Positions 1 through 45,127 of a DNA stretch of 64,000 nt are shown one piece after another. The stretch is from Limibacillus sp. Lineage in GTDB: Bacteria > Pseudomonadota > Alphaproteobacteria > Kiloniellales > CECT-8803. The stretch spans positions 1 through 64,000 of the forward strand of contig JARRJC010000013.1 of NCBI GenBank assembly GCA_037379885.1, read 5' to 3'. The translations under genes were made by a program, and so were the position numbers. Every line of letters begins with the position of its first letter. Within the stretch, counting starts at the first letter, position 1. The notes under the pieces are model-generated. The model saw only the letters and a program-made list of their open reading frames with translations. It did not search any database and had not been told where the DNA came from.

Positions 1-246
1 GATGTTCATGTGGTCTTTGGATCCTCGCAACAGCCCTCACATGTATTTGGTCTACCTAGCCACATTCATCTATTTCCTAGAGGGGATGATCCCGGCGCTG
101 CCGATTTTTTGGCATGTGATCACCGACGACGGTCACGGCATCTACACCGCGCCGGGATCATCCCCTCTAGGAAATAGATGAATGTGGCTAGGTAGACCAA
201 ATACATTTGAGGGCTTTTGCGAGGATCCAAAGACCACATGAACATC
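1..246. repeat. 98-bp near-perfect inverted repeat with 50-nt loop
   Basis: Positions 1-98 are the reverse complement of 149-246 with only two mismatches (31 against 216, 40 against 207). The 50-nt loop is 99-148. The repeat reaches exactly the first base of the window, so it may continue to the left. Each arm carries the same possible coding start (ATG TTC ATG TGG). Only the right arm has its upstream sequence in view, with an AGGTGAG just before the ATG. Such a structure can be a real cruciform-forming repeat, a terminal hairpin of a replicon, or a fold-back artefact at the end of an assembled contig. The sequence alone does not separate these, but the position at the window edge favours an artefact or a replicon end. 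Confidence 0.9.
2..181 (+). other. 59-codon open frame through left arm and loop, doubtful gene fragment
   Basis: A frame opens with ATG at 2 and runs through the left arm and the loop to a stop in the right arm. The translation contains a hydrophobic stretch (MYLVYLATFIYFLEGM) and continues plausibly into the loop as LPIFWHVITDDGHG. Read from the right arm on the minus strand (ATG at 246), the same N-terminus enters the loop as an arginine-rich tail and soon stops, which looks non-coding. This suggests that the true gene follows the left-arm orientation, or that the junction is chimeric. No family was recognised. Confidence 0.25.
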
Positions 247-298
247 TCACCTAAATGCTGTATCGATTTTTGCGTATACACTAAACCAATGGGGGTGC

Positions 299-324
299 CA
301 GGGGCGAGTAAATACCCGCCCCTG
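299..324 (-). terminator. GC-rich hairpin just past the orphan gene's stop
   Basis: CAGGGGCG (299-306) pairs with CGCCCCTG (317-324) around a 10-nt loop, 10 bases beyond the stop codon of the minus-strand gene ending at 334. There is no T-run on either side, so factor-independent termination is uncertain. It may simply protect the 3' end of the transcript. Confidence 0.4.
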
Positions 325-333
325 AGCCGCTTC

Positions 334-2673
334 TTACTTGAGTATTTCGTTGGTCGCGGCAGCCCCAGCCTCTTCGCTGAGAATCCGTAGAGCATTCCTA
401 GAGCCCTCAAAGCCCAATCGTTGCCCTACACGTCCAACAGAAAGCATATGCCCTGCTATTCGGCCCCAATCCTGTGCTCCGGCGATGGACGCCATGAGCG
501 TGGCTGCTGCTTCGGGATCCTCGCGAAGCATCTCCGGTAAACGCTTGAGTTCAACCTCACTAGCGGCTAGACGCCCAGCGACTGCTTCTCCGGCATTCCC
601 CAAGGCGCCGAGCACAGCAGTACCATGAATGGCAGCTGGGTTCATGGAGCGCACCGCAAAGGCTGCATTCACTACCGCCCCTTGCGCCGCAGATCCAACC
701 ACGTCGAATTCGTGGTCCCGTACCTCCTCCGCCCCGGCGATTTCCACGACGCGTGCCATGAAGACGGCGGTCTGGAGATGGGCGAGTTCCTCCGCCTGCT
801 CCTCGTAGGCCGCCAGGGTCGCCTGCGCCGCCTCGTACCGCTCGACATCCGTACCCCGGTGACCACGCGCAGCCTTGCGGCCCAGGCCCGGATTGGCCGC
901 GATGAATGCTTGGGCTTCTGATGCGTCCGGGGCCTTCGTCTCAAGCTCTTCAAGATTGCTCAAGACGCCGTTGAAGGCTGCGGCGTTCTCCACCCCCGGA
1001 GTTTCCATGAGACCATCGACAAGACTATTGGCCGCGCCGAAATTGGCCGGATCGGTGAGCGGTTGGGCGGCGGCGGTAGCCTGGTCCACGGCCCAGAGAT
1101 CGAAGGCCAAGGGGGTCGCCGAACCGCTGTCGTCGTAGAGGCGGTGGAGGTCACCCTCAATAATCTCCTCATGAGACAGGCGACCGGAGGCATACGCATT
1201 CAAGAGGCCGCTTCGGAGGTCACTGCCGGCGAAGGGCAAGTTCAGCGGCGCCTCAAGGTTCCCGCCAGATAGGCGGAAGCCGCCGTCCTCGCTCCGTTGC
1301 ACCGTGAAGACACCGGCGCTCTCAATAGCATCCAGATCGCGGCCCAAGCTCAGAATGGCGTCGAACTCGGCCTTGGCCTGCTCGAACTGCGCTAAATGGC
1401 CCTGACGCTGTGTGGCTGAACCCTCTAGAACGCCGCTTCGCAGGCCCTCCATCTCCTCAGCCAGAATGGAAAGGCGATCACGCTCGTCTGGGTGCAGGTG
1501 CACGGTCGCCCGCTCGCCCTTCTCAAGACTCTGCTCCACTTGCTGGCCGAGGTGGTAGTGCGTGCGCTCAACACTACCCTCCTCCGCCTCTGGATCGCCG
1601 GGGAGATCGGGCCGCAGGCCCTTGACGAAGAGGATCTGATCTTGCCGGTCGTTTTCCCGCGCCTGCGCGTCTGCCTGGCGGGCGGCAGCGCCTTGCGGGT
1701 CCAGGTTCTGAGCCTCCAGGTCCGTAGCGGCGGCTAGCGGGGCTTCTTTTGACGCTTGTGCATCGGCGAGGGTCTTGGTCGCCGTGGCGAGGGCGGCGGT
1801 GAGGACCTTCGGGTCCTTGGCCTTGTCACCCAGGCCTTCCAACAAGCTGGCAGCTTGAGCAGACGGCAGCTCCGCCAGCGGAACGCCCGCCGCGCCTTCG
1901 CGCGCGAACTGCGTCAAGCCGCTCTCCGGGTCGTAGGTCAGCTTGATCTCGCTTTCCCGGTTGTGGCGGCCCGCCACGCTCAAGGCCCGCTCGGCCTGGG
2001 CGCGCGCCTCTCCCTTGAGGCCGTGGCCATCCAGCAGGTCCTCGCGGCGGCGCTGAATCTCGCCCGCCTCGGCCTGCAACGCCTGACGATGCTTTTCCAG
2101 GCGGTCGGTCTCGGCCTGACGAATCACATGGTTCGAGGTGCCGGGGCGCGCCGCCTGGCCCGCGACCGAGGCGCTGTTGCGCCGCTCCTCGGCCCGCTTG
2201 GCCTGACGCGTCAGCCAGACTTCCCGCCTTGCGTCCTTCTCCAGGGTCACGGCGCTCTCCCCTGCATTGGGCCGGAAGTTGGGCTTAGGCTTGGGCTTGG
2301 GCTTGGGCGTGGGCTTGGCGCCGGTGGGTGACGGCGAGGCCTCGGACAAGGGCTGATCCGCGCCCTGCCCCGGCTGCTTTGATGGGGGCCGCGAAGAGGC
2401 TGGAGGTGCGACCGGCACCGGACCCGGGGGAAAGGCCGCCGGGGGAGAAGCAGGCGCGCCTGATCCGCGAATGGGCTTGGGCGCGGGCTTGGGGGCAGGT
2501 TTTGGCGCAGGCTGGGGCTGCGGCGTGCCGGAGGGAGGTTTGGCGGCGGTCATCGGTGGCTTGGTCTCAGGCCGCTTGGTCTTGAGCGGTTGAACCCCGG
2601 GCGCGGTCGCATGCGGCGGGGTATCGGGCAAGCGGCGCTTGCGGCGGGACTTCTCGTCGTCGAGAAAACTCAT
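334..2673 (-). CDS. Unrecognised 779-residue protein, Pro/Lys-rich N-terminus and charged helical body
   Basis: I do not recognise this protein. Residues 1-25 are basic (MSFLDDEKSRRKRR). About 30-160 are low-complexity proline/lysine/alanine, with runs such as KPAPKPAPKPAPKP and KPTPKPKPKPKP. The remainder is rich in Ala, Glu, Gln and Arg, looks mostly helical with likely coiled coil, and ends in an Ala/Gly-rich tail. No signal peptide and no clear catalytic motif were seen. The start at 2673 was chosen because AAAGGA lies 9 nt upstream; the frame stays open to 2871, but that extension overlaps the promoter and two terminator-like hairpins. The C-terminal coding part and the DNA beyond it look less GC-rich than the neighbourhood. 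Possible roles are a surface, phage- or conjugation-related, or secreted effector protein; these are guesses. Confidence 0.75.
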   Translation of the reverse strand: MSFLDDEKSRRKRRLPDTPPHATAPGVQPLKTKRPETKPPMTAAKPPSGTPQPQPAPKPAPKPAPKPIRGSGAPASPPAAFPPGPVPVAPPASSRPPSKQPGQGADQPLSEASPSPTGAKPTPKPKPKPKPNFRPNAGESAVTLEKDARREVWLTRQAKRAEERRNSASVAGQAARPGTSNHVIRQAETDRLEKHRQALQAEAGEIQRRREDLLDGHGLKGEARAQAERALSVAGRHNRESEIKLTYDPESGLTQFAREGAAGVPLAELPSAQAASLLEGLGDKAKDPKVLTAALATATKTLADAQASKEAPLAAATDLEAQNLDPQGAAARQADAQARENDRQDQILFVKGLRPDLPGDPEAEEGSVERTHYHLGQQVEQSLEKGERATVHLHPDERDRLSILAEEMEGLRSGVLEGSATQRQGHLAQFEQAKAEFDAILSLGRDLDAIESAGVFTVQRSEDGGFRLSGGNLEAPLNLPFAGSDLRSGLLNAYASGRLSHEEIIEGDLHRLYDDSGSATPLAFDLWAVDQATAAAQPLTDPANFGAANSLVDGLMETPGVENAAAFNGVLSNLEELETKAPDASEAQAFIAANPGLGRKAARGHRGTDVERYEAAQATLAAYEEQAEELAHLQTAVFMARVVEIAGAEEVRDHEFDVVGSAAQGAVVNAAFAVRSMNPAAIHGTAVLGALGNAGEAVAGRLAASEVELKRLPEMLREDPEAAATLMASIAGAQDWGRIAGHMLSVGRVGQRLGFEGSRNALRILSEEAGAAATNEILK

Positions 2674-2702
2674 GGCGGCGGTTCCTTTCGGTGCGGACAA
2701 AG

Positions 2703-2739
2703 AAAAAGCCCCGGCGCGGAATGCACTGGGGCTGGGGCT
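2703..2739 (-). terminator. Terminator-like hairpin 2 in the orphan gene's leader
   Basis: On the minus strand AGCCCC pairs with GGGGCT, followed directly by TTTTC. The T-run ends only about 30 nt before the ATG at 2673, so this hairpin lies inside the 5' leader of the orphan gene. It could act as an attenuator or end a small RNA. Confidence 0.6.
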
Positions 2740-2764
2740 ATGGCTGAAGCTGAGGCTAGACAGC

Positions 2765-2795
2765 AAAAAGCCGCCTCTCCGGCGGGAGGGCGGCT
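2765..2795 (-). terminator. Terminator-like hairpin 1 in the orphan gene's leader
   Basis: On the minus strand AGCCGCC (2795-2789) pairs with GGCGGCT (2775-2769), with an inner CTCC/GGAG pairing, followed by TTTTT. This is a strong intrinsic-terminator shape about 40 nt downstream of the predicted transcription start and upstream of the gene it would silence. Confidence 0.65.
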
Positions 2796-2836
2796 CGGCC
2801 CGATTTGGCCAGAATCTGGCCGCAGCTCGGGCAACG

Positions 2837-2887
2837 CGAACAACTATAGTCATATCAACAATATTTGTCAAGATTATTTGTTGTTCG
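2837..2887 (-). promoter_or_regulatory. Strong sigma-70 promoter flanked by an inverted repeat
   Basis: On the minus strand TTGACA (2871-2866) and TATAGT (2848-2843) are separated by exactly 17 nt. That is a near-consensus promoter driving the orphan gene, with transcription expected to start near 2836. The core promoter is bracketed by CGAACAAC (2837-2844) and GTTGTTCG (2880-2887), perfect inverted copies 35 bp apart. This placement is typical of a repressor operator, but the regulator is unknown and not evident in the window. The local AT-richness contrasts with the flanking sequence. Confidence 0.65.
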
Positions 2888-3043
2888 TAGGTTGCCCTGT
2901 AACCGGCCCATGTCGTAATCCGGAGTCCTCCTGTCGCAAATTGCCTGGAAGCTCGGCAGCGGATTCACGATTGTCTGAACCTGAAATCGCTTCGCCCTTG
3001 GGGAGCGCTGCTCCCCTCAAGAAACCTTTCGAGGAAGAGTCCC
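2888..3043 (+). other. Intergenic region before the flavoprotein gene, one perfect hairpin
   Basis: No gene is seen here. GGGGAGC (3000-3006) pairs perfectly with GCTCCCC (3010-3016) around a 3-nt loop, 27 nt ahead of the next start codon. It lacks a T-run, so it is more likely a 5' leader stem than a terminator. No clear promoter was found. Confidence 0.5.
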
Positions 3044-5488
3044 ATGAAGTCTCATGCGCGTGTTGTGGTCATCGGCGGTGGCGCGGTCGGCGTCTCCACC
3101 CTCTATCACCTGGCCAAGAAGGGCTGGAGCGACGTCGTCCTGGTCGAGCGCAAGGAACTGACGTCGGGCTCCACCTGGCACGCCGCGGGGCTGCTGCCGC
3201 TGTTCAACATGAGCTACTCGGTGGGCCAGATCCACAAGTACTCCGTCAAGTTCTACCAGGAGCTTGAGAAGGAGACCGGGCAGGACGTCGGCTTCTCGAA
3301 GTGCTCCAACATCCGCCTCGCCACGAACCAGGACCGCATGGACGAGTTCATGCAGTACAAGGGCGTGGCCGAGACCATCGGCATCGACGTGAAGGTGCTG
3401 ACCCCCGAAGAGGTGGTCGAGGTTTGGCCGCTGGCGGTCAAGGACGGCCTGATCGGCGCGATCCAGCACCCCGACGACGGCTACATCCAGCCCGCCGACC
3501 TGACCCAGGCGCTCGCCAAGGGCGCGCGTTCGCTCGGAGCGGAGATCTACCGCAACACCGCCGTCACCGGCATCAAGCGCAGCGACGCCGGCGAGTGGGT
3601 CGTCCAGACCGACAAGGGCGACATCACTTGCGAGCACGTCGTGACCTGCACTGGCAGCTTCGCCCGCCAGACCGGCAAGATGGTCGGGCTCGACATTCCC
3701 GTGATCCCGGTCGAGCACCAGTATATCGTCACCGAGCCGCACCCGGAGATCATGAAGCGCAAGGAGCAGGGCCTGCCGGAGATGGGCGTGCTGCGCGGCG
3801 CGGACGGCGCCTGGTACATGCGCGAGGAGCGCGGCGGCCTGATCCTCGGCCCCTATGAGCACGGCGCACCCGCCTGTTACGTGCGCGGCCCCAGCGAGGA
3901 CAGCGAGTACGAGCTGTTCCAGGAAGACCTCGACCGCCTGATGCCGCACATCGAGTCCGCCATCGAGCGCGTGCCCGCTTTCGGCGAAGTCGGCATCAAG
4001 AAGGTCTACAACGGCGCCATCGCCTACACCCCGGACGGCAACCCCATCGTGGGCCCGGCCTGGGACCTTCCGAACTTCTGGCTGAACGAGGGTCACTCCT
4101 TTGGCATCACGGCGGCCGGCGGGGCCGGCTGGCAGCTGGCCGAGTGGATCGTCGAGGGTGAGCCCACCATCGACATGCTGGGCGTGGACCCGCGCCGCTA
4201 CGGCGACTACTGCACCGAATCCTATCTGATCGAGAAGAACGAGGAGGCCTACGCCCACGTCTTCATCACCCACTTCCCCGACGAGGAGCGTCCGGCCGCC
4301 CGCCCGCTGCGTCGGGCCCCCTCCTACGAGCGCTTCAAGGACATGGGCGCGGTCTTCGGCCAGTCCTTCGGCTGGGAGCGGGCCAACTGGTTCGCGCCCG
4401 AGGGTGTGGAGCCCGTCGACGACTGGTCCTTCCGCCGCTCCAAGTACTTCGAGCATGTCGGCAACGAGTGCCGCAACGTCATGGAGAACGTCGGCCTTCT
4501 GGACCTCTCGGGCTTCGCCAAGGCGCGCATCTCCGGGCCGGGCGCCGAGGCCTTCCTCGACAATCTGGTGGCCAACAAGCTGCCCAAGAAGGTCGGCCGC
4601 ATCGCGCTGGCCCACGCGCTCAACACGCGTGGCGGCGTGCACTCCGAGTTCACGATCCTGCGCGAGGGCGAAAGCTCTTTCTACATGGTCTCCGCCGGCG
4701 GCTTCGAGCGGCTGGACCACGACTGGATCAAGAAGCACATGCCGACCGACGGCTCGGTGCGCTTCGACTACCTGACCACCTCCATGGGCGTGCTGATCGT
4801 GGCCGGGCCCAAGGCGCGCGAGCTGATGAAGCGTGTCTCCCCGCGCACGGATTTCTCGAACGCGGCCTTCCCCTGGCTGTCGGCGCAGGACATCGACGTC
4901 GGGCTCGCCCCGGCGCGCGCCATCCGCGTCAACTTCCTGGGCGAGTTGGGCTGGGAACTGCACCACCCCATCGAGTACCAGCTGCACATCTTCGACAAGC
5001 TGACCGCGGCGGGCGCCGATCTCGGCCTGAAGCCGCTGGGCCTGCGCGCAATGGACTCGCTGCGCCTGGAGAAGTCCTACCGCCTGCCGGGCCGTGAGCT
5101 CTCCATCGAATACGCCGCCTTCGAGTCCGGCCTGCAGCGCTTCGCCCATCCCAACAAGGGCGAGTTCATCGGGCGCGACGCGCTGGTGGAGTGGCAGCAG
5201 AAGGGCTTCGACTACGCCTTCACCACCCTGGAAGTGCACGACGTCACCGACGCCGACGCGCTGGGCAGCAACCCGATCTACCACCAGGGCGAGGTGGTCG
5301 GCCGCGCCACGTCCGGCGGCTATGGCTTCCGTATCGGCAAGTCCTTGATGCTCGCCATGGTAAAGCCGGACCTCTCGGTGCCGGGCACGGAGCTTGAAAC
5401 CGACATCCTGGGCACAAAGCATCGCTGCACGGTGCTGGAGGAGAGCCCCTACGACCCCAACAACGAGCGCTTGCGGGCGGATGGCTGA
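3044..5488 (+). CDS. FAD-dependent sarcosine/dimethylglycine dehydrogenase-like protein with GcvT domain
   Basis: Predicted cytoplasmic flavoenzyme that oxidatively demethylates an N-methylated amine or amino acid and passes the one-carbon unit to tetrahydrofolate. The N-terminal half (about 1-380) is a DAO-type FAD domain with the dinucleotide-binding motif VVIGGGAVGVST near residue 8. His46 in SGSTWHAAG sits where DMGDH and sarcosine dehydrogenase carry covalent FAD. A linker (FAO-M type) and the C-terminal aminomethyltransferase (GcvT) folate domain (about 440-800) follow. At 814 residues it has the usual length of this family. The start is supported by GAGGAAG 6 nt upstream. The downstream GFA gene overlaps by 8 nt, so the two are probably cotranscribed; a GFA-type protein would fit with handling formaldehyde-level carbon. 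The exact substrate (dimethylglycine, sarcosine or another methylamine) cannot be read from sequence. Confidence 0.9.
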   Translation: MKSHARVVVIGGGAVGVSTLYHLAKKGWSDVVLVERKELTSGSTWHAAGLLPLFNMSYSVGQIHKYSVKFYQELEKETGQDVGFSKCSNIRLATNQDRMDEFMQYKGVAETIGIDVKVLTPEEVVEVWPLAVKDGLIGAIQHPDDGYIQPADLTQALAKGARSLGAEIYRNTAVTGIKRSDAGEWVVQTDKGDITCEHVVTCTGSFARQTGKMVGLDIPVIPVEHQYIVTEPHPEIMKRKEQGLPEMGVLRGADGAWYMREERGGLILGPYEHGAPACYVRGPSEDSEYELFQEDLDRLMPHIESAIERVPAFGEVGIKKVYNGAIAYTPDGNPIVGPAWDLPNFWLNEGHSFGITAAGGAGWQLAEWIVEGEPTIDMLGVDPRRYGDYCTESYLIEKNEEAYAHVFITHFPDEERPAARPLRRAPSYERFKDMGAVFGQSFGWERANWFAPEGVEPVDDWSFRRSKYFEHVGNECRNVMENVGLLDLSGFAKARISGPGAEAFLDNLVANKLPKKVGRIALAHALNTRGGVHSEFTILREGESSFYMVSAGGFERLDHDWIKKHMPTDGSVRFDYLTTSMGVLIVAGPKARELMKRVSPRTDFSNAAFPWLSAQDIDVGLAPARAIRVNFLGELGWELHHPIEYQLHIFDKLTAAGADLGLKPLGLRAMDSLRLEKSYRLPGRELSIEYAAFESGLQRFAHPNKGEFIGRDALVEWQQKGFDYAFTTLEVHDVTDADALGSNPIYHQGEVVGRATSGGYGFRIGKSLMLAMVKPDLSVPGTELETDILGTKHRCTVLEESPYDPNNERLRADG

Positions 5489-5900
5489 CCCCGTCCCCTC
5501 GCCCGACGCCGAAGTCCGCGAGGGCGGCTGCCTCTGCGGCGCCGTGCGCTACCGCCTGACGGGTGCCTTGCGTCCCGTCTTCGGGTGCCACTGCAGCCAG
5601 TGCCGCAAGATCTCCGGACACTACGTGGCGGCCACCGCCGTGGACCGGGAGAGCTTTCAGATAATCTCGGGCGAGGAGACGCTCTCCTGGTTCGAGTCCT
5701 CGCCGGGGGTGCGTCGAGGCTTCTGTGCCTCCTGCGGCTCCAACCTCTTCTGGGACCGGGCGAGCCTGCCGGTGATCGCGGTCATGGCCGGCAGCATAGA
5801 CGAGCCCAGCGGACTGACGATGAAGAGCCACATGTTCGTCGCCTACAAGGGCGACTACTACGAACTCAATGACGGGTTGCCGCAGAAGCAGGAACGCTGA
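5481..5900 (+). CDS. GFA-family (glutathione-dependent formaldehyde-activating-like) zinc protein
   Basis: 139 residues with the GFA/CENP-V fold pattern: CLCGAVRY near the N-terminus, CHCSQCRK around residue 36 and CASCGSNLFW around 80. These cysteines form the zinc sites of this family. Some members were described as activating formaldehyde through S-hydroxymethylglutathione, although that activity is disputed for many homologues. The ATG at 5481 overlaps the end of the upstream demethylating flavoenzyme by 8 nt, which indicates translational coupling and supports a role next to a formaldehyde-producing reaction. A strong hairpin terminator lies just after the stop. Function beyond the family level is inference. 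Confidence 0.85.
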   Translation: MADPVPSPDAEVREGGCLCGAVRYRLTGALRPVFGCHCSQCRKISGHYVAATAVDRESFQIISGEETLSWFESSPGVRRGFCASCGSNLFWDRASLPVIAVMAGSIDEPSGLTMKSHMFVAYKGDYYELNDGLPQKQER

Positions 5901-5922
5901 AGCGGCCGCCGGACAAACGAAA

Positions 5923-5947
5923 AGGGCGCGCCGGATGGGCGCGCCCT
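5923..5947. terminator. Bidirectional terminator hairpin between convergent genes
   Basis: AGGGCGCGCC (5923-5932) pairs with GGCGCGCCCT (5938-5947), a perfect 10-bp stem. It lies between the plus-strand GFA gene and the convergent minus-strand gene ending at 5973. Pyrimidine-rich sequence follows on the plus strand and AC/TTTTCG-type sequence on the minus, so it can serve both transcripts. Confidence 0.75.
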
Positions 5948-5972
5948 CTCTCGTTCTTGTAAGGCGGGGCGG

Positions 5973-6848
5973 TCAGAAGGCCATCTTGACGGCGTGCTTC
6001 TGGCCCGCGCCGACGTTGAACTCCTTGCGGACTTCCTTGCCGCCCTGCTCGGCGATCACAAGGTAGCTGCCTTCGGGCAGCAGGAAGTTGTCGCCCACGG
6101 TCTGGCTGGTCACCAGAGGCTCCGACCCGGCGCCCGCGCCCTTCGCATAGATCTTCCAGAAGACCGTGACGTCCGTGTTGGCGCCCGCCGCCGGTTCCGC
6201 GAAGACCCGCATGGTGCCGGCGTTCAGGTTGATGGAATAGTTGTAGTTGTTGCCCGCCGTCACCTCGATGGTGTGCTTGGCCTCCACACCCTTGTGCTTC
6301 GCGGTCACGTAGTAGTAGCCCTCCGGCAGCATCAGGTGCGGGTTCGCGCCACGCACGCTGGCCACCTTCCAGCGGTTGCCCGAGGAGTCCCGCCCGAAGG
6401 TCCAGACGGTCCAATCGATTTCGTCCTTGACCTCGGGTGCGCCGAAGTAGGGCATCAGCGCCAAGGTGACGCCGCCCGCGTTCAGGACCGCCTGATGCGC
6501 AACCGGCGCGTCGGCGATGCTGACCTCGGAGCGGATGGTCGAAAGGCCGAAGACCGAGGTGACCCGGTAGCGCCCGGACGGCAGGTCGGCGACGAGCTGC
6601 GGGCCCGTCTGCGCGGCGACGACCTTGCCGCGGTCCTTCCCGTCGAGCGCCTCGACCGAATAGGCGATCTTTTCGTTCATCGGCGCGGCGCCGCGGACCG
6701 GCACGGCGGTGACGGTCAGACGCTGCGACTGCCCCTTGGAGGCGGACTGATTGCTTTGCGCTTCCGCGTTCGATGACATGAAGAAAAATGCACCCGTCAG
6801 AATCGAGACCGCAAGTGCGACGACTCCGAACTTACTCCGCTTCCCCAT
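5973..6848 (-). CDS. Secreted protein with three beta-rich LPxGxYxV repeats
   Basis: 291 residues from the ATG at 6848. A signal peptide is clear: a basic start, a hydrophobic core and a cleavage-like SNAEAQS near residue 31. The mature part contains three related modules, each ending in a similar motif: DLPSGRYRVTS, MLPEGYYYVTAKHKG and LLPEGSYLVIAEQGGK. This pattern resembles PEGA or carboxypeptidase-regulatory-like beta-sandwich repeats often found in periplasmic or surface proteins. The frame is open further upstream to 6992, but that extension lacks a signal-peptide start and crosses the promoter region. The gene stands alone, convergent to the GFA gene. I know of no assigned function; a periplasmic binding or scaffolding role is a guess. 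Confidence 0.8.
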   Translation of the reverse strand: MGKRSKFGVVALAVSILTGAFFFMSSNAEAQSNQSASKGQSQRLTVTAVPVRGAAPMNEKIAYSVEALDGKDRGKVVAAQTGPQLVADLPSGRYRVTSVFGLSTIRSEVSIADAPVAHQAVLNAGGVTLALMPYFGAPEVKDEIDWTVWTFGRDSSGNRWKVASVRGANPHLMLPEGYYYVTAKHKGVEAKHTIEVTAGNNYNYSINLNAGTMRVFAEPAAGANTDVTVFWKIYAKGAGAGSEPLVTSQTVGDNFLLPEGSYLVIAEQGGKEVRKEFNVGAGQKHAVKMAF

Positions 6849-7019
6849 GAGGGTTCGCTCCCATGCTGCTTTCCCGGTGGCTCGTTTTGCCAAGGTTCCC
6901 CTAACTTCGAACCGTGGCAGCAATCCTATTCGGGGATTTCTTAACGCCCCGTTTCGCGTCAGCAATCTACGCCAAAGCCATGAATCTGCCAAGTTTTTAG
7001 AAAAAGAAAGGTCGAATTG

Positions 7020-7901
7020 TCACAACCTTCGGCTTTCCGGCGGAACGCCCAGGATTTCCTCCCAGCGCGCCAGTTCGCGACGGATCAGCGCCAGGTTCGA
7101 ATCGCGTAGCGTCGGCAAGCTGTAGCGCGCCCGGCGCAGTTGGCCGTAGTCCAACTCGGCGGTGAACAGCCCCTCCTCCTCCCCTGCCTGGACCAGGGTC
7201 TCGCCCTCGGCATCCAGAATCCGGCTGCCGCCCCAGAAATTCAGGCCGTCGAACCGTCCCGTGTGATTGCAGAACAGGATCGGCATGCCGTAGACGAGGG
7301 AATAGAAATCCAGCGTCTTCTTCCAGCCGCCAGGATTGGAGAACTGGCCGCCGACCGCCTCGACGGCCGAGGCCACCGGGTTCAGCAGCAGGGTAGCGCC
7401 CTGCACCGCCGCCAGATGCACCAATGCCGGGTTCCAGGTGTCCGCGCAGATCAGCAGCCCGCAGCGCCAGCGCTCGTCCTCCAGCGCAAAGGATTCGACG
7501 AAACGCCCGCCCGCGAAGTGCTTGCCCTCTTCCAACTGCCCGTAGGTCGGCAGGTTCAGCTTGCGGTGCAGGAAGGATACGGCGCCCCGGTGCAGCACCG
7601 CCGCGGTATTGTGGAACTGGGCGGCCACGCCCTCCTCGACGAAACCGGCGACGACGCGCATCTCTCCCGCTTCGCGCGCCAAGGCCAGGAGCCGGGGATC
7701 GTCCCGCTCCATGGCGATATCGAGAACTTGGCCCGCCACTCCGTAGCCGCTCAGCGAGAGTTCCGGGAACATCAGGATGCTGCAATCTTCGCCCTGCGCG
7801 CGGCGCACCATCTCGTGATGCTTTTCGAGGTTGCCGTCCAGATCACCCGGCCGGCAGGCGATCTGCGCCACGCCGACCTTCAAACGCTCTGCCCGCGCCA
7901 T
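7020..7901 (-). CDS. Carbon-nitrogen hydrolase (nitrilase superfamily)
   Basis: 293 residues with the full nitrilase triad: Glu47 in FPELSLSGY, Lys114 in HRKLNLPTY and Cys152 in LLICADTWN. The fold is the alpha-beta-beta-alpha amidase type; substrates in the family include amides, N-carbamoyl compounds and nitriles. The start at 7901 (MARAERLKVGVAQ) is preferred over a longer frame to 7973, because GGGGGAG lies just ahead and the family core begins right after it. The gene is divergent from the DUF1194 gene with 95 nt between them. The absence of a neighbouring pathway leaves the substrate open; an aliphatic amidase or N-carbamoylputrescine-type amidohydrolase is possible. Confidence 0.88.
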   Translation of the reverse strand: MARAERLKVGVAQIACRPGDLDGNLEKHHEMVRRAQGEDCSILMFPELSLSGYGVAGQVLDIAMERDDPRLLALAREAGEMRVVAGFVEEGVAAQFHNTAAVLHRGAVSFLHRKLNLPTYGQLEEGKHFAGGRFVESFALEDERWRCGLLICADTWNPALVHLAAVQGATLLLNPVASAVEAVGGQFSNPGGWKKTLDFYSLVYGMPILFCNHTGRFDGLNFWGGSRILDAEGETLVQAGEEEGLFTAELDYGQLRRARYSLPTLRDSNLALIRRELARWEEILGVPPESRRL

Positions 7902-7983
7902 GCTCCCCCGCTCCTCCTCGGCAGTCGATTCCGGTAAAGCGCGAGGCTCGCACAGCTTACTTACGCCCGCCACCCCTGCTTGC

Positions 7984-7989
7984 TATAGT
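7984..7989 (+). promoter_or_regulatory. -10 element TATAGT close to the DUF1194 start codon
   Basis: TATAGT lies only 7 nt before the ATG at 7997, and no Shine-Dalgarno sequence is present. If this hexamer is used, transcription would begin at or next to the ATG, giving a leaderless message. The matching -35 (TTACGC, 17 nt upstream) is weak. Confidence 0.35.
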
Positions 7990-7996
7990 CCGCCGC

Positions 7997-8695
7997 ATGA
8001 TCAGCCTAAAACGCAGCCTGCTCTGCACCCTCCTGTTCCTGACCGGCCTGAACTTCTCCGCAAGCGCGCCAGCACAGGACAACCGGGTGGACCTGGAACT
8101 CGTACTCGCCATCGACAGCTCCAACTCCGTCGATGAGGAGGAGTACGCCCTGCAAATGGAGGGCTTCGCCAGCGCCTTCAATCACCCCTCGGTACTGGAC
8201 GCGATCCGCTCCTACAACGCCAACGGCATCGTGGTGACGCTGGTGCAGTGGGCGGGTGCCAAGTCGCATAAACAGGTCATTGACTGGACCCTGATCCGCA
8301 CCCCGGAAGACTCCCAGGCCTTCGCCCAGGCCCTGCTGAACGCCCCGCGCGTGGTTGAGGGCGCGACCGCGCCGGGCGACGCCATCACCTTCGCGACCGG
8401 CCTGTTGGAGTTCAACGCCTGGGACGGCAAGCGAAAGGTCATCGACGTATCCGGCGACGGCCGCCCGAACGAGGGGGAGCGCCCGCCCTACCCGCGCTCT
8501 CGCGCCCTGAAGCTGGGGGTGATCATCAACGGCCTGGTGATCATGAACGAGGAGGAGAACCTCGACCGCTACTACCGCTGGGGCATCATCGGCGGGCCCG
8601 GCGCCTTCCTGGAGGTCGCAGAAGACTTCACCGATTTCGAGCGGGCCATCCGCCGCAAGCTGCGCCAGGAGATATCAGGGGTCCCGATCTCCTAG
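7997..8695 (+). CDS. DUF1194 secreted von Willebrand factor A-like protein
   Basis: 232 residues. The N-terminus is a Sec signal peptide (MISLKRSLLCTLLFLTGL, with cleavage after SAPAQ). The mature protein begins with a VWA-type metal site, LAIDSSNSVD (DxSxS), and contains VIDVSGDGRPNEG, the characteristic region of DUF1194. This family is common in alphaproteobacteria, periplasmic, and of unknown role. VWA domains bind partner proteins through a divalent metal. It is convergent with the small membrane gene (stop codons 7 nt apart). Translation initiation is unusual, as no ribosome-binding site is visible. Confidence 0.85.
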   Translation: MISLKRSLLCTLLFLTGLNFSASAPAQDNRVDLELVLAIDSSNSVDEEEYALQMEGFASAFNHPSVLDAIRSYNANGIVVTLVQWAGAKSHKQVIDWTLIRTPEDSQAFAQALLNAPRVVEGATAPGDAITFATGLLEFNAWDGKRKVIDVSGDGRPNEGERPPYPRSRALKLGVIINGLVIMNEEENLDRYYRWGIIGGPGAFLEVAEDFTDFERAIRRKLRQEISGVPIS

Positions 8696-23347: not shown

Positions 23348-23884
23348 TTACGCGGCGACCGGCTTCATCATCTTCTCGACCGTGGTGTTCATGCGGGCCT
23401 GCAGGGGCTCGTAAGCCTCGTTGGCGACCTTCACGGACATCTCGGTGATCTTGGCGCTCTCGGCCATGACCTTGTCGAACTGGGTCTTGGTCATCTCGCT
23501 CTGCAGGTCAATGACCTCGCGGAGGGACTTGGCACCCATGATGGCCTTGGCGGCGGCGACCTGAGCCTCGAAGGCGGACTGGGTGAAAGCAACCCACTCC
23601 TTGCCGACCTGCTCGTAGCCCTTGGCGAGCTTGGTGTTGAAAGCGACAACGGCGTCGACGTTCTCCTTGGAGATCTCGGTCATCTCGTCGTAGCTCTTGA
23701 ACATGGACTGAGAGGCCTTCTCGACCTGCTCCTTGGTCATGGCGACAGCCTGCTCATAGTTCTTGGTGGCGGCGTCGGTGCCAACCTTGACGAACTGCTC
23801 GACGGTCTCCTTACCGGCGGAAACAGCGTCCTCAACCGGCTTCATAACGTCGGCCTGCTTGGTGGTCTTTTTGGTCGTGGTCAT
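23348..23884 (-). CDS. Phasin family protein
   Basis: 178 residues, nearly all amphipathic helix, with the phasin_2 pattern: ETVEQFVKVGTDAATKNYEQ near the N-terminus, a central region with NTKLAKGYEQVGKEW, and SLREVIDLQSEMTKTQFD toward the C-terminus. Phasins coat polyhydroxyalkanoate granules and control their size. AAGGAG lies 7 nt before the ATG at 23884. The gene has its own strong promoter and terminator, consistent with the very high expression usual for phasins, and TTGTGCA-type palindromes at the promoter suggest control by PhaR. The codons are strongly biased toward C/G endings and repeat few choices, as expected for a highly expressed protein. Confidence 0.92.
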   Translation of the reverse strand: MTTTKKTTKQADVMKPVEDAVSAGKETVEQFVKVGTDAATKNYEQAVAMTKEQVEKASQSMFKSYDEMTEISKENVDAVVAFNTKLAKGYEQVGKEWVAFTQSAFEAQVAAAKAIMGAKSLREVIDLQSEMTKTQFDKVMAESAKITEMSVKVANEAYEPLQARMNTTVEKMMKPVAA

Positions 23885-44728: not shown

Positions 44729-45127
44729 TCAGTCCTCGCGCTTTTCCAGGTCCTCGGCCGTGATGTCTTCGAAGATCATGCCGAGAGCCGCTGCGGGATC
44801 GTCTTCGGCCGCAGCGCTCGCCTCATCGCTTTCGGCGACGGGGCTTTCCTCGCCGGCTGCTTCGCTCTCGGCTGCGACTTCCTCTTCAGGCTCGTCGCGC
44901 TCGTTGTGCTTTTGAAGACCGCTGACGATGCTCTCCTCCAGGGTCTCCAGGCTCACCGTCTCCTCGGCGATCTCGCGCAGCGCGACGACCGGGTTCTTAT
45001 CGCGGTCGCGGTCGATGGTGAGCGGCGCGCCGGCGGAAATCTCGCGGGCGCGCTGACCGGCCAGCAGAACCAGATCGAAACGGTTGGGAACCTTGGTTAC
45101 GCAATCTTCGACGGTAACGCGTGCCAT
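44729..45127 (-). CDS. rpoZ: RNA polymerase omega subunit
   Basis: 132 residues. The N-terminal 65 hold the omega fold: [29 protein letters not shown] and [15 protein letters not shown], which stabilises the beta-prime subunit. The remaining half is an acidic Glu/Ala/Ser-rich tail, usual in alphaproteobacterial omega. It is next to rsh, the common rpoZ-spoT neighbourhood, but with a terminator between them. Confidence 0.96.

Follow-up and report, generated by a model that had tools for sequence, protein, structure and literature searches.

Near the start of the window (the whole 64,000-nt stretch of DNA that was analysed) the minus strand carries a gene for a 779-aa protein, followed by the start of a gene for a membrane-anchored partner. 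Ahead of the 779-aa gene, on the minus strand of 2674-2887, CGAACAAC, TTGACA, a 17-nt spacer, TATAGT overlapping GTTGTTCG, a two-tier hairpin, a terminator (T1), a 30-nt linker, a second terminator (T2), AAAGGAA and the ATG follow one another in this order (Table 1); the original prediction had placed its elements correctly.

Table 1. Positions of the leader elements and of the genes behind them in the window.
Feature	Position	Strand	Basis
Gene for 779-aa protein, lineage-specific multi-copy family	334..2673	-	family searches, alignment
Start of gene for membrane-anchored partner, cut by contig end	149..246	-	partner profile match
Distal arm CGAACAAC	2880..2887	-	sequence
-35 hexamer TTGACA	2866..2871	-	sequence, promoter scan, genome pattern search
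-10 hexamer TATAGT, 17-nt spacer	2843..2848	-	sequence, promoter scan, genome pattern search
Proximal arm GTTGTTCG, 2-nt overlap with -10	2837..2844	-	sequence
Approximate transcription start (predicted)	2836	-	promoter position, 7 nt after -10
Two-tier 5' hairpin GCCCGA/TCGGGC with inner GGCCAG/CTGGCC	2798..2832	-	folding; alone -21.2 kcal/mol in nascent chain
Terminator T1: hairpin 2795-2769 (-20.2 kcal/mol) and TTTTT 2769-2765	2765..2795	-	terminator scans, folding
Loose hexamer repeat AGCCTC/AGCTTC/AGCCAT/AGCCCC between terminators	2735..2760	-	sequence; under TRF threshold
Terminator T2: hairpin 2733-2707 (-17.5 kcal/mol) and TTTTTCTTT 2707-2699	2699..2733	-	terminator scans, folding
Ribosome-binding site AAAGGAA, 8 nt before ATG 2673	2682..2688	-	sequence

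The start codon ATG 2673 is backed by the ribosome-binding site, by the family alignment and by the in-frame upstream extension, which does not show the codon bias of the gene: its GC contents at the three codon positions are 0.57/0.74/0.67 as compared to 0.74/0.52/0.73 in the gene. Two in-frame starts further upstream, TTG 2871 and ATG 2853, were ruled out, as they lie inside the promoter and have no ribosome-binding site. The 779-aa protein belongs to no Pfam or NCBIfam family, and searches of named genome contigs, phages, plasmids and viral contigs yielded no relatives of the gene. Nevertheless, the gene is not the orphan it had been taken for, since a search of relatives with the C-terminal part of the protein revealed paralogues in the sister genus (G001, the one further genus of its family that was compared), which has about six family copies. 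Most of these are adjoined by a gene for the membrane-anchored partner, one such locus also containing a DUF6973 protein. Other families of the order have distant relatives of the partner, whose resemblance to DUF2927 stays under the Pfam cut-off. The GC3 of the gene (0.73) is low next to that of its neighbour (0.93) and the window median (0.85), which suggests a recent arrival or relaxed constraint; it matches the GC3 of the G001 genes. The gene is fast-evolving and poorly conserved.

The G001 loci L008, L009 and L021-L024 are variable multi-copy loci of two or three genes, combining a large low-complexity protein with a conserved membrane-anchored partner. L022 and L024 have the N-terminus in common and differ in the C-terminus, and we liken them to polymorphic toxin-like families. 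The start of the contig (C13, window 1-246) consists of a 98-nt inverted repeat with a 50-nt loop and two facing starts of the partner gene; it has the look of an assembly artefact that folds back at a repeat common to contig C24, and the folded-back copy at G000:C13:50-154 is recognised by the partner profile (E 8e-4).

The promoter TTGACA-17-TATAGT (2871-2843, minus strand) matches the consensus at 11 of 12 positions and lies in a region (2837-2890) with a GC content of 29.6%, as compared to 65.6% for the window. Two sites of this quality (11/12) were found in the window and none in ten shuffled windows (one strand each). All genome-wide statements made here refer to pattern searches, in which TTGACA-N16-18-TATADT returned five sites from the whole 3.1-Mb genome and 0 in the reversed control, so that the consensus promoter of the original prediction is present beyond chance. 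The remaining four sites precede genes which we take to be rplU (MYAVIKTGGKQYKV), rpsM (VARIAGVNIPTNKRVHIAL), rpsD and a phasin-like gene starting at 23884 (minus strand), named by reading the protein sequences and not by family search. As ribosomal-protein and phasin genes are typically highly expressed, the promoter of the 779-aa gene looks like a member of the strongest class in the genome.

Downstream of the promoter a small GGCCA/TGGCC stem had been described, which is present but does not form a separate element: GGCCAG/CTGGCC (2821-2816/2812-2807, minus strand) is the inner tier of the larger hairpin 2832-2798. Stepwise folding predicted that the 5' hairpin, T1 and T2 each form once transcribed, the 5' hairpin being first, and gave predicted pairing probabilities of 0.97 for T1 and 0.88 for T2. 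The stem ends of T1 and T2 are located 96 and 34 nt ahead of the start codon.

A simple consensus scan of 1-8000 returned 5 terminator-like sites where shuffles gave 5.5, and hence no enrichment. The evidence for T1 and T2 comes instead from a stricter energy scan of the 64-kb window for hairpins with T-runs on both strands, which resulted in 16 matches that were ranked by a d'Aubenton-Carafa-type score (d). Six matches exceed d = 30, namely those after rpoZ (44729-45127), after the gene 5973-6848, after tRNA-Leu and after the phasin gene as well as T1 and T2, and the location of the first four at gene 3' ends supports the scan. T1 (d = 35.1) and T2 (d = 36.4; 42-43 for the two when the stem ends are set slightly differently) score within the range of the same-window terminators after rpoZ, tRNA-Leu and phasin, i.e. 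beyond chance, confirming that two full terminator hairpins with T-runs lie ahead of the start codon. They form the only strong tandem pair in the scan, and no other match among the top six lies away from a gene 3' end. Because the chance that two of the nine positive minus-strand matches fall within 70 nt is about 8%, the pairing alone is modest evidence; what is notable is its combination with the promoter and the position in the leader.

The leader DNA is absent from 57 related genomes and has no match in plasmids and viral contigs. A 34-nt match among the 57 relatives, located in a coding sequence resembling a C-terminal-processing protease, was judged to be due to chance, and a phage match (35 nt, 88.6%, E 5e-3) covers the AT-rich promoter only and is at chance level. 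Among the paralogue leaders, four were readable (L008, L022, L024 and the degraded L021); a strong promoter combined with tandem terminators occurs in none of these, indicating that the leader is specific to this copy. The L008 leader contains a single terminator, which is best assigned to the soxG-like gene upstream. The comparison genomes include no close relative, and the leader structure is therefore without comparative support. In L008 (4100-4131) a ribosome-binding site, AAAGGAG, directly ahead of the ATG is flanked by two complementary arms, AAGGGAAA and TTTCCCTT. On the far side of the promoter, the window (2908-3043) shares with G001 (L008 10081-10190) the conserved blocks GTCGCAAATTGCCTGGA and CGATTGTCTG upstream of a dimethylglycine-dehydrogenase-like gene, a possible regulator site, and the palindrome GGGGAGCGCTGCTCCCC is found at 3000-3016 in the leader of the divergent gene.

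Two sequence features of a premature-termination leader or a 5'UTR-derived RNA are present, a promoter upstream and an intrinsic terminator before the downstream start codon. We lean towards a model of strong initiation and double termination in which the gene is reached only by read-through. The strong housekeeping-type promoter would initiate at about 2836, and the nascent RNA would fold into the stable 5' hairpin before encountering two strong intrinsic terminators one after the other. Termination at T1 and T2 would release short structured RNAs with predicted lengths of about 72 and 138 nt, respectively. Expression of the 779-aa gene and its partner would depend entirely on the small fraction of polymerases passing both terminators, making the leader a constitutive throttle and also a source of short RNA. 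The promoter probably yields mainly short RNAs, with little transcription reaching the gene; we infer start site, termination efficiency, read-through and RNA stability from the sequence. A promoter scan, which found no promoter-like site between T1 and ATG 2673, supports this model. Points against it are the short U-tract of T1 (five), a conceivable non-sigma-70 promoter nearer to the gene, and the absence of the leader from the 57 related genomes and of tandem terminators from the four paralogue leaders.

The main rival, possible if on the unlikely side, holds that promoter, 5' hairpin and T1 constitute a stand-alone gene for a trans-acting sRNA, with T2 as a back-up insulating the 779-aa gene, which would be silent or served by an unseen promoter. 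A promoter in the class of ribosomal-protein and phasin promoters, a compact hairpin-plus-terminator RNA of T1 length and the doubling of the terminators are what such a gene might look like, but the element is single copy, has no Rfam match and is found neither in the 57 relatives nor, beyond chance-level promoter matches, in the phage, plasmid and viral collections, and no other promoter for the 779-aa gene was found. Both readings are compatible, as a stand-alone sRNA and read-through into the gene do not exclude each other.

Rather unlikely is a regulated attenuator, in which a protein, a ribosome, an sRNA or a ligand blocks T1/T2 under some condition and thereby turns the operon on. Leader terminators are a common regulatory layout, Alphaproteobacteria included (PMC12218461, PMC9373788), but here forbidding T1 changed the folding energy from -43.3 to -21.2 kcal/mol (a cost of 22) without any substitute structure taking its place, and forbidding T2 (-68.3 to -49.6 kcal/mol) likewise produced none. 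Secondary-structure prediction found no competing antiterminator fold in the leader, so no built-in switch is visible to this method and a classical attenuator or riboswitch is unsupported. No ligand-binding RNA class was matched in Rfam at gathering or relaxed thresholds (best sub-threshold E 0.17), and serial terminators would require processive antitermination. All leader frames are devoid of a ribosome-binding site, the in-register frame is not coding-like, the TTG ORF 2843-2670 has no family match, and none of them makes a convincing leader peptide; a frame encoding RCPSCGQILAKSG was dropped, as it has no start codon and zinc-finger matches below threshold only. Of the original proposal of attenuation or a leaky short leader RNA, the switchable attenuator is hence unsupported. 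With two full terminators separating a strong promoter from the start codon, however, one would expect either short leader RNAs and leaky read-through or attenuation of some form.

Control by a dimeric repressor that binds CGAACAAC/GTTGTTCG across the promoter, the hairpins being incidental, is very improbable. The 8-bp arms are perfect, as had been noted, but the promoter does not lie strictly between them because the proximal arm overlaps the -10 hexamer by two bases. The pair CGAACAAC-N20-50-GTTGTTCG occurs once in the genome, at the promoter; the search for the same operator elsewhere, which the original prediction had recommended, gave no second copy. Such a pair is contained in 2.7-4.3% of the region's shuffles (roughly 3-4%), so that the repeat exceeds chance only weakly, and no regulator gene is adjacent, leaving the operator reading weak. 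The spacer 15-mer TTGTTGATRTGACNA occurs with zero mismatches once in the genome and three times in G001, always upstream of the same gene family, but the three G001 sites represent one duplicated block and the similarity to the paralogue upstream region was reached by 17 of 300 shuffled pairs; the common motif is suggestive, a lead only. That the hairpins arose by chance and have no effect is next to negligible, for although GC-rich sequence readily folds and the simple consensus scan revealed no excess of terminators, none of 200 dinucleotide shuffles folds as stably as the leader (z = -3.74) and T1/T2 score like terminators at gene 3' ends.

The read-through model has counterparts among known systems. 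As in the E. coli 5'UTR-derived small RNAs ChiZ and IspZ, which arise by premature termination (PMC7815308), the short RNA would share the promoter of the downstream gene and be released in the leader, the difference being that two intrinsic terminators are arranged in series here. The Listeria Rli51-mpl leader (PMC11394854) likewise gives a short terminated RNA (121 nt) with the gene reached by read-through, but in Rli51 an antiterminator of greater stability is predicted and an sRNA serves as partner, neither of which was found for our leader. The alphaproteobacterial leaders of Sinorhizobium meliloti, the SAM-II metZ leader with the RZ sRNA and the DUF1127 uORF attenuator (PMC9373788, PMC12218461), also terminate prematurely, yet they contain either a fold that binds a ligand or a uORF that is translated, and no sign of these was detected here. 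Finally, the type III toxin-antitoxin system ToxIN (PMC8860590) shows the same order of promoter, non-coding RNA, terminator and protein gene; in contrast to ToxIN, no tandem array of RNA repeats exists at 2600-2950, and the 779-aa protein has no notable Pfam, NCBIfam or PADLOC match that would make it a ToxN-type endoribonuclease.

In summary, the leader is a real, well-formed case of a strong promoter followed by a double terminator, for which a regulatory reading is plausible. It is highly unlikely, though it would be an RNA control module not yet described for the family, that the short RNA is abundant and serves as a species-specific regulator, both throttling a variable, toxin-like operon of two genes and acting on it. 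The principle is already known and the leader is a fresh instance of it; with its top-consensus promoter and two terminators it would provide a clear example, open to testing, in which termination and not a weak promoter keeps the expression of a gene low, as well as a concrete short-RNA prediction for a little-studied genome.
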